NCBI GenBank assembly: GCA_016177845.1
Contig: JACOUO010000017.1
Span: forward strand, 1 to 64,000
Reading direction: 5' to 3'
Origin: Deltaproteobacteria bacterium
GTDB lineage: Bacteria > Desulfobacterota > GWC2-55-46
Length of the DNA stretch: 64,000 nt
Below are positions 41,856 to 44,306 of this stretch, piece by piece. Position 1 is the stretch's first letter. Every line of letters begins with the position of its first letter. A program made the position numbers and the translations under genes. The notes under the pieces were generated by a model. It did no database searches, was not told where the DNA came from, and was given only the letters and a program-made list of their open reading frames with translations.

Positions 41856-42776
41856 TTACTTGTTGTGGCAGGTTCTGCATACGCCTGAACCTGAGTTACC
41901 GCCGACCCTTCTAAGGAAGAGACCGTTTGACTCAGCTTCGAGGTTGGTGATGCCTGCGCCGGCCCATGCGTTGTCTGTTTCGTTCCATGACTTGTTGTTG
42001 AAGTGGGGATCATGGCATGAGGAGCACTCAACTTTGCTTGACCTGAGGAGGTCAGCGATTGTGGCTGTGTTAGAGATGTAACCTTTTACTGCCCAGAGGT
42101 TTGAAGCAAGGTTGCCGTTATCATATGTTGCTGCTGAAGCGGCGAGCTCTGCTGTAAGATCGATTGCGCTGAGTACTGTTGCTGTCGGCCTGAGTGACGC
42201 AACTGATGAGTTGTATGTTACTGAAACCGGGTGGTCGTTTGAAAGATTGAGGCCTATATTCAACCTGCCGCTTGTCATGAAGTCTGAAACATAGCCCGGG
42301 ACAGCTGCGTCCCAGAATGAGTAGCCACGGTCTGCACCGGCGCCTACTGTGTTGCCGCCGATCTGTGTTGTACCTGCGAAGTTCTTACCAGGGGCGTTGA
42401 CGATGTTGTCAAATGTTGTTACGCCATCATGGCAGCTTAAGCAGGCAAGTGATGTTGAGCCGATGTCTGAGCTGTTGATTGTTGTTCCGCCGATTGTTGT
42501 ACCATAAGCTGTGAAGGCTGAAGGGGCTGATGTGCCTCTGTTCCAAAGGGGCTTAAGGTTGTTTGTTGTGTTTGTGTGATGCGGTGTATGGCAGAAGATA
42601 CAAATTTCTGTGGTCTGTGCGGCTGTGATGTGCTCGCCGAGTGAACCGAGGTTATGCCTTGAAGAACCGATACCATTGGCTGCTTCACCTGCTGTGTATG
42701 TGTCGATGGCTGAAGCTGAACCGGCTGCGAAAAGACCCATTGAAGCTACGAGGGCTGCTGTAAGAAACCTTTTCAT
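41856..42776 (-). CDS. Tetraheme c-type cytochrome, OmcE-like
   Basis: 306 residues. Signal peptide 1-23 ending SASA. Four heme sites: CIFCH (59-63), CLSCH (112-116), CSSCH (251-255), CRTCH (300-304). Extra His at 41, 49, 66, 67, 182 (NDHPVS) and 258 can supply distal ligands. The order ICIFCHTPHH ... LWNR ... LACLSCHDG ... NDHPVS is that of the paired-CXXCH family containing OmcE, the tetraheme cytochrome that polymerises into extracellular filaments in Geobacter. ATG 42776 follows AAAGGAG with proper spacing; the longer frame to 42872 crosses the leader and is rejected. It has its own promoter, leader and terminator. Confidence 0.88.
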   Translation of the reverse strand: MKRFLTAALVASMGLFAAGSASAIDTYTAGEAANGIGSSRHNLGSLGEHITAAQTTEICIFCHTPHHTNTTNNLKPLWNRGTSAPSAFTAYGTTIGGTTINSSDIGSTSLACLSCHDGVTTFDNIVNAPGKNFAGTTQIGGNTVGAGADRGYSFWDAAVPGYVSDFMTSGRLNIGLNLSNDHPVSVTYNSSVASLRPTATVLSAIDLTAELAASAATYDNGNLASNLWAVKGYISNTATIADLLRSSKVECSSCHDPHFNNKSWNETDNAWAGAGITNLEAESNGLFLRRVGGNSGSGVCRTCHNK

Positions 42777-42842
42777 TGTATTGCTCCTTTCATTCTTTAG
42801 GTTGAATGTTTTTAATTTTTTGTCTTCTCTACCGGCATTTTT

Positions 42843-42955
42843 GGAATAAAAAAATGCCGTCAATACTACCACCTGTCATCGGCAGTACCGCGGCATCATC
42901 ACCTGCGAAGTCTTTTGGAGGGCCCTTCATGAACCATCCAGACTTACCGTTTGTT
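42843..42955 (-). promoter_or_regulatory. Attenuator-like structured leader of the tetraheme cytochrome
   Basis: Read on the reverse strand, RNA would begin near 42955. A hairpin closed by AAGTCT/AGACTT (42940-42945 with 42908-42913) comes first. Then two exclusive structures share the same bases: TACTGCC/GGTGGTA (42881-42887 with 42867-42873), or a terminator TGCCG/CGGCA (42880-42884 with 42855-42859) followed by seven U. Such alternatives are typical of riboswitches or attenuators. The 3' part GCGGTACTGCCGATG faintly recalls GEMM-I riboswitches, but I cannot find the GEMM core. Confidence 0.55.
42848..42884 (-). terminator. Leader terminator upstream of the tetraheme cytochrome
   Basis: On the reverse strand TGCCG (42884-42880) pairs with CGGCA (42859-42855), followed directly by UUUUUUU (42854-42848). 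It lies about 70 nt before the start codon, inside the transcribed leader, so it would cut transcription short unless the competing stem forms. Confidence 0.55.
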
Positions 42956-42961
42956 ATCCCT

Positions 42962-42989
42962 ATTATATTACAAAATTAAAATGTGTCAA
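42962..42989 (-). promoter_or_regulatory. Consensus sigma-70 promoter of the tetraheme cytochrome
   Basis: On the reverse strand TTGACA (42989-42984) and TATAAT (42967-42962) are both perfect consensus, 16 nt apart. Transcription should start near 42955. Such a strong promoter fits a protein made in bulk. Confidence 0.8.
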
Positions 42990-43131: not shown

Positions 43132-44172
43132 TTAATTCTTTTTAACGGCGCTCTGCCTTGACTTATGCTTCTCACCGATGTATTCGAAGACCTCAACCCT
43201 GCGGTTCCATGAATCAATGACATAGATAAAATCGTCTTTATCTATTGAGATGCCTGCCGGCAGTATCATCTGGCCCCTGTCGCTTCCGTAACTGGCAAAA
43301 GCAAGGAGGATATTGCCTTCCTCATCGAATATCTGGACATTATTGAAAGCGGCGTCAACGACATATATATGGCCTTCGCTGTCAACGGCAATGCCTTTGG
43401 GCCTTGCGAACATCCCTGGGGAATCCCCGAACTGGCCGAACGCCCTTATGAACTTGCCGTCCATATCAAATATCTCAACCCTTCCGTTCATGGTATCGAC
43501 TACATAGACATTGCCTTTGTTGTCCACCGTGACATTTGAGGGAAAGTTGAACTCGCCGTCCTCTTTGCCCCTTTTACCTATGACCTTGATCTGCTTGAAT
43601 GTCTCTGTATCAAAGACCCTGATATCATGCGTGTGGGTATCTGTTATATAGAGCCTCTTGCGTTCGCTGTCCACGGCAAGCCCTGTAGGCTGTTTGAACG
43701 GGGGGTCAGGGTTAAGCGTTGTGATTATTTTGGCGCTCTGGTCAAGCACAATGACCTTGTCCGTCTGTGAGTCGGATATGAATATTTTTCCTGTTGCGTC
43801 TGAAGCGACTCCAATGGGTTTGTAGAACAGCTTCGCTCCCATCTCACCGAGGGTGGTTGCTTTCTTGTTTGCTGGGTCGAATACAAAGACATCCGCCCCG
43901 GCGGTATCTGTAACGAATATCTTGCCGTTAGTGTCGGTGTGCACGCCTATCGGCTTTTTAAGGGCGCTTGCGGCATCAGCGCCGAGGAGGATGTCGGCAG
44001 CCATATTGCTTTCCTTGAATGAGTTGCCGCTCCTGTAGTCCCTTATATATTTTATCTTCGGCTCGTCCGGCGCTTCAGGCCAGTAGATGTCAGGAAGCGG
44101 CGGGGCCGCGCAACCGTAAATGATTACCGGTAAGGCGAGTGTAAGCAGGATCTTTTTAAGCGTTCTTTTCAT
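43132..44172 (-). CDS. NHL-repeat beta-propeller lipoprotein
   Basis: 346 residues. Lipobox VIIYGC (Cys 21), a short linker, then about six NHL repeats of the form KPIGVHTDTNGKIFVTDT, each ending in a D(x)VxVFD-like strand, enough for one six-bladed propeller. Start ATG 44172 has GAGGAC upstream. NHL propellers sit beside filament cytochrome genes in Geobacter, where they may help assembly; that link is from memory and inferred here. It lies 134 nt after the triheme gene. Confidence 0.88.
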   Translation of the reverse strand: MKRTLKKILLTLALPVIIYGCAAPPLPDIYWPEAPDEPKIKYIRDYRSGNSFKESNMAADILLGADAASALKKPIGVHTDTNGKIFVTDTAGADVFVFDPANKKATTLGEMGAKLFYKPIGVASDATGKIFISDSQTDKVIVLDQSAKIITTLNPDPPFKQPTGLAVDSERKRLYITDTHTHDIRVFDTETFKQIKVIGKRGKEDGEFNFPSNVTVDNKGNVYVVDTMNGRVEIFDMDGKFIRAFGQFGDSPGMFARPKGIAVDSEGHIYVVDAAFNNVQIFDEEGNILLAFASYGSDRGQMILPAGISIDKDDFIYVIDSWNRRVEVFEYIGEKHKSRQSAVKKN

Positions 44173-44306
44173 AATTATTGTCCTCGATTGGATTCTCTCC
44201 CTCTTTGGAGGATAAGGCCCCTTGGAAAAAGGGGGTGAACAAAGATTCCGATTCAAATATTACTATGCCGTATCGCTTAAAGTCAAGTTTCACGAAAGGC
44301 AAACGG

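Follow-up and report, generated by a model that had tools for sequence, protein, structure and literature searches.

The window, that is, the whole stretch of 64,000 nucleotides analysed here, carries on its reverse strand a gene of an OmcE-like cytochrome, preceded by a promoter and a structured leader and, further upstream, by an NHL beta-propeller gene with a terminator of its own at positions 43114-43086 (Table 1). The cytochrome is homologous to PDB entry 7tfs, which we take to be the OmcE filament (phmmer 3.4e-17), and this homology, together with the four CXXCH motifs and a Paired_CXXCH_1 domain match, places it within the OmcE type, filament formation being a prediction. Entry 7tfs is cited in papers on OmcE. 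NHL genes also occur upstream of the cytochrome in two relatives (G058 and G053).

Table 1. Features of the cytochrome leader and its surroundings in the window, and further copies of the element in the same genome (G000).
Feature	Position	Strand	Basis
-35 hexamer TTGACA	42984..42989	-	motif match; TTGACA-type promoter also ahead of most homologous leaders
-10 hexamer TATAAT, spacer 16	42962..42967	-	motif match
P1/H1: outer stem AAGUCU/AGACUU (42945-42940 with 42913-42908) around hairpin H1	42908..42945	-	folding and homologues
H1 core GGUUC-AUGAA-GGGCC; loop A-N-G-R-N; U-G wobble	42921..42935	-	leader alignments
H2, predicted antiterminator hairpin, GC-A-GGU-GAUGAU-GCC-GC; second A-N-G loop	42890..42906	-	leader alignments
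H3, upper terminator helix GUACUGCC/GGUAGUAU, covarying	42863..42888	-	leader alignments
Intrinsic terminator: base AUGCCG (42896-42891) with CGGCAU (42859-42854), H3, then seven U (42854-42848)	42848..42896	-	folding and alignments
H4: CGGCAUUUUU/AAAAAUGCCG, sequesters terminator 3' arm and U tract	42833..42859	-	folding
Ribosome-binding site AAAGGAG	42784..42790	-	sequence
OmcE-like cytochrome, controlled gene, 306 aa, 4 CXXCH	41856..42776	-	phmmer and Paired_CXXCH_1
NHL beta-propeller gene, upstream of cytochrome	43132..44256	-	domain search
Element copy ahead of five-haem cytochrome	G000:C5:66513		R2
Element copy ahead of cyclase operon	G000:C14:102971		R2
Weak fourth element copy (L214), before short, broken-looking reading frame	G000:C5:226971-227108		R2

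The TTGACA-16-TATAAT promoter named in the original prediction (42989-42962, reverse strand) is the sole 12/12 sigma-70 match within the surrounding 14 kb. Transcription is expected to start near position 42956 of the reverse strand, and the leader, predicted to be about 110 nt long, measures approximately 108 nt and ends with UUUUUUU at 42854-42848. The folding energy of this RNA (42956-42848) is -40.6 kcal/mol (z = -3.85), a value equalled by none of 200 shuffled sequences. The mutually exclusive stems and the terminator with seven U were likewise confirmed. The conflict between them had, however, been misplaced at 42880-42887, since UACUGCCG (42887-42880) forms the 5' side of H3, the upper helix of the terminator, and stays base-paired whichever state is adopted. 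The competition that is conserved is for the GCC at 42894-42892, whose partner is GGU 42903-42901 in H2 and GGC 42858-42856 at the terminator base; the 3' arm of H2 is, in other words, the 5' base of the terminator, and the GGC is kept in more than 60 of the 65 copies aligned. In the genome of the window and in about one third of the relatives the 3' arm of the terminator and the U tract can alternatively pair downstream, forming H4. We rejected H4 as a part of the core, because a stem of at least 8 pairs is found in only 20 of 65 homologues.

A search of the DNA of relatives revealed the leader, at approximately 70% identity, across genera of the same family and in two further families. The original prediction had staked itself on conserved pairing in the leaders of related cytochromes, and such pairing was indeed found: in a MAFFT alignment of 23 relatives H1, H2 and H3 were jointly supported, with 88% of the cells paired and 10 pairs showing double-sided change, and the double-sided changes numbered 43 against 15.3 ± 3.9 in shuffles, every slid control being far lower. 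H3 and the terminator gave the same picture. With 65 relatives, in an alignment fitted to the covariance model and hence biased towards it, 161 double-sided cells were counted against 52 ± 8 in shuffles. The pairs of H2 and of the terminator base are nearly invariant across the copies, which puts them beyond a test by covariation, while the outer stem of P1/H1 varies freely. Conservation of the element is strongest in the loops and not in the stems. H1 follows the consensus YUC-A-N-G-R-N-GGG, with the U-G wobble in all 65 copies, C at the first loop position in 63, A in 64 and G in 65, and H2 follows GGY-N-A-N-G-...-U-GCC, the A of its loop being present in 65 of 65. Judged by these data, the leader is a real conserved structured element and appears to be a widely conserved RNA on/off switch, and the proposal of a conserved terminator/antiterminator switch ahead of the cytochrome was right.

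With covariance model R2, approximately 98 copies of the element were detected in 37 of the 63 genomes of the same class. A sample of 395 genomes of the phylum contained 9 with a match, all of them inside the class, and gave no sign of spread beyond it; likewise, when the hits of a pattern scan across GTDB were rescored with R2, strong matches were confined to MAGs with the label Deltaproteobacteria or a similar one. The majority of these are recognisably genomes of the same class, and the remaining pattern matches look like chance. The genes downstream of the element are overwhelmingly those of OmcE-like cytochromes with four to five haems, and nearly all genomes devoid of strong elements are devoid of an OmcE-like gene as well (among 30 genomes tested, this gene was found only in G002 and G007, both with elements, and in G053 and G058). 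In 20 genomes, including that of the window, a copy stands ahead of an operon in which a PocR-GAF-GGDEF diguanylate cyclase is recurrently paired with an ATPase containing a HATPase_c_2 domain. In the genome of the window this operon (L066:413-4548, G000:C14) has a STAS protein gene in third place, its domains being confirmed by Pfam, and the four R2 matches comprise the one in the window and three others (Table 1). One RNA-defined regulon would thus tie the production of OmcE-like cytochromes to the synthesis of c-di-GMP.

At the moment when transcription has only just completed the U tract, folding into the terminator is favoured over folding into H2 by 9.7 kcal/mol, and hence something must hold H2; termination by default, relieved by a protein that holds H2, is the natural reading of this difference. 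In the full-length RNA the terminator fold and the H2/H4 fold lie within 1 kcal/mol of each other, as might be expected of a constitutive or kinetic attenuator whose terminator sets a fixed level of read-through, with H4 lending stability to the mRNA at its 5' end. We consider such an attenuator very unlikely, since the H1 loop and H2 are conserved in both cytochrome and cyclase leaders far beyond the needs of a plain terminator and the long H4 is missing from most copies. Attenuation by a leader peptide was rejected, as the AUG of the H1 loop is replaced by ACG or AAG in approximately half of the homologues, and a conserved start codon with a short reading frame is lacking there.

The original prediction also saw a faint likeness to GEMM-I riboswitches, which found no support. 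Neither the window nor 17 homologous loci contained a credible Rfam family, even at relaxed thresholds (E up to 10 on the leader and up to 5 on the homologous loci), and GEMM-I (RF01051) had no match at gathering score in the leader. This negative result is informative because the same model detects a true GEMM-I elsewhere in the genome (G000:C18:113020, 47.9 bits). In logic the two are alike, with cytochromes and cyclase genes placed behind an RNA switch; in fold and consensus they differ. The GEMM-I regulon in Geobacter is of a similar kind, comprising cytochromes. The GEMM-I in the genome of the window (G000:C18:113020-113151, L127) lies upstream of a gene for a fibronectin-like secreted protein, and similar ones occur in several relatives. 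Replacement of the element by GEMM-I was considered as a clue to its ligand; since GEMM-I in genomes of the class precedes other genes, the ligand was not identified in this way. Among other known classes, the ACGR loops of some copies superficially recall guanidine-II (mini-ykkC). This candidate was rejected, as it gave no Rfam match and the loops read AYGRN/AAGRN instead of two ACGR loops, the second loop base being U, C or A, so that the C-G loop-loop contact is not kept. Altogether, an overlooked known riboswitch, whether GEMM-I, guanidine-II or another, is refuted as far as the Rfam models go, and we regard it as hardly credible.

The plan of two tandem hairpins, the second of which overlaps an intrinsic terminator at its 5' base, is that of the antiterminators targeted by ANTAR proteins (PMC3369931). 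Like the ANTAR-target RNAs of eutP in Enterococcus, nasF in Klebsiella and amiE in Pseudomonas (PMC3369931), the leader has two tandem stem-loops of at least 3 bp each, the second being exclusive with the terminator, an A and a G conserved in each loop and a short linker (approximately 7-19 nt between the cores of H1 and H2, within the 2-25 nt of such targets); ANTAR genes occur in the genomes that carry it and lie next to several of its copies. It departs from them in its loops, which read N-A-N-G-R-N, with A2 and G4, in place of hexaloops with A1 and G4. The H1 loop, C-A-N-G-R-N, never has A1, keeps G4 and spaces A and G by two instead of the canonical three; the H2 loop often comprises seven nucleotides and conforms to A1/G4 in a minority of copies, among them several cyclase leaders (AAAGGU, AAAGAU, AAUGAU). 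The invariant U-G pair of H1 and the control of extracellular cytochromes and a diguanylate cyclase further set the leader apart from known ANTAR targets. The difference in the loops is real, because canonical targets exist in the same genome: at L346:5310-5625 (G000:C5), ahead of a porin-amtB-glnB cluster and beside a group-B receiver-ANTAR gene, a dual hairpin likewise overlaps a terminator, whereas its loops, AAGGGA and AAAGGC, obey the A1/G4 rule. A weak R2 match in the element-poor genome G048 (C20:10245-10390) is also a canonical target (loops AGCGCC and AAAGAA), located 1.1 kb from an ANTAR response regulator gene.

ANTAR domains occur in all 63 genomes of the class, two such proteins being encoded in that of the window, and their mere co-occurrence with the element is for this reason uninformative. 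In G058 a response regulator gene with ANTAR is followed by NHL and then by the element, whose loops are GAUGAA and GAUGAU, ahead of the OmcE-like gene, and in G004, G005 and G015 no more than approximately 1.6 kb separates R2 matches from an ANTAR match; by our own arithmetic, about 0.2-0.3 such coincidences would be expected for 98 matches, the loci within genera g5 and g6 being mutually non-independent. In the genome of the window no ANTAR gene adjoins an element. The ANTAR proteins encoded near the cytochromes of G004, G005 and G015 are small and stand-alone, and stand-alone ANTAR genes were also found by Pfam beside OmcE-like genes in G021, G024 and G025.

Another trans-acting partner, such as a CsrA-type or BglG-type protein or a small RNA, could be thought of as binding the antiterminator, the more so as the H1 and H2 loops sometimes read AUGGA or ACGGA and thereby resemble the ANGGA of CsrA. 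However, the GGA is not kept, the purine after G being A in 37 of 65 H1 loops; a CsrA-bound leader was accordingly rejected, and a partner of this broader kind appears quite unlikely. As to the proposal that the switch is controlled by a ligand, it gained some appeal from the copies ahead of the cyclase operon, while the anatomy of the leader and its gene neighbourhood favour an RNA-binding ANTAR protein. In a new riboswitch class, H2 would be stabilised by a small molecule bound across the loops of H1 and H2, the most plausible candidate being c-di-GMP or a cyclic dinucleotide related to it. The OmcE-like cytochromes would in this way come under its control, and so, in a feedback loop, would the diguanylate cyclase. 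The placement of the element before the GGDEF operon in 20 genomes and before cytochromes elsewhere would agree with this, as would the nearly invariant loops and U-G pair and the presence of GEMM-I, which indicates that these cells use riboswitches of the c-di-GMP type. Were it true, the tandem A-N-G loops would be a cyclic-dinucleotide sensor providing feedback on the PocR-GAF-GGDEF cyclase and turning extracellular cytochrome wires on. Considering that the leader alignments reveal only two short conserved hairpins and neither a junction nor a large invariant or ligand-pocket-like core, that the element is restricted to one class, that ANTAR genes adjoin some of the elements and that the overlap is arranged as in ANTAR targets, we find a riboswitch of this kind unlikely.

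We therefore prefer to regard the leader as a variant ANTAR-type antiterminator and assign this reading, in which protein binding is inferred, a probability of approximately 0.7. Since the A1/G4 loop rule fails, the leader is not filed as a standard ANTAR target; it probably works like one. In the default state, RNA started at the strong promoter would fold into H3 and the GCC/GGC base and terminate at the U tract. On a presumed signal, an ANTAR protein would bind H1 and H2 at their tandem A-N-G loops and hold H2, which would keep the GCC arm from the terminator and let transcription run on into the OmcE-like cytochrome gene; the same switch would join further cytochromes and the PocR-GAF-GGDEF operon in one regulon. 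A precedent for the proposed function is NasT, which in Bradyrhizobium is described as regulating the respiratory nap and nos genes by antitermination (PMC6759348); the genes and signals differ. The literature searched contained no report of ANTAR control over nanowire cytochromes. The ANTAR antiterminator offers a concrete mechanism, open to test, that would decide at what times OmcE-like extracellular cytochromes are produced in an uncultured deltaproteobacterial lineage. It also suggests a tolerance of ANTAR recognition for a second loop code.

In the genome of the window, the receiver-ANTAR response regulator at G000:C20:52520 is probably the one that acts. Group B and the stand-alone proteins are set apart in the ANTAR tree, which does not name the regulator; perhaps the leader is read by a group-A protein, because a group-A response regulator is the only ANTAR match in two near-complete genomes with elements (G007 and G040). 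In some relatives this part may possibly be taken by small ANTAR proteins of the stand-alone kind, whose genes adjoin that of the cytochrome. Such proteins (L305, L315, L350, L354 and L289), some of which have GKW or AKW for AKG, lie beside OmcE-like cytochromes in two genera and could be competitors or dedicated regulators. Short tandem repeats were also observed between the leader and the start codon of the cytochrome, in L032 (approximately 1700-1820) and, downstream of the element, in L031, L102 and L103.
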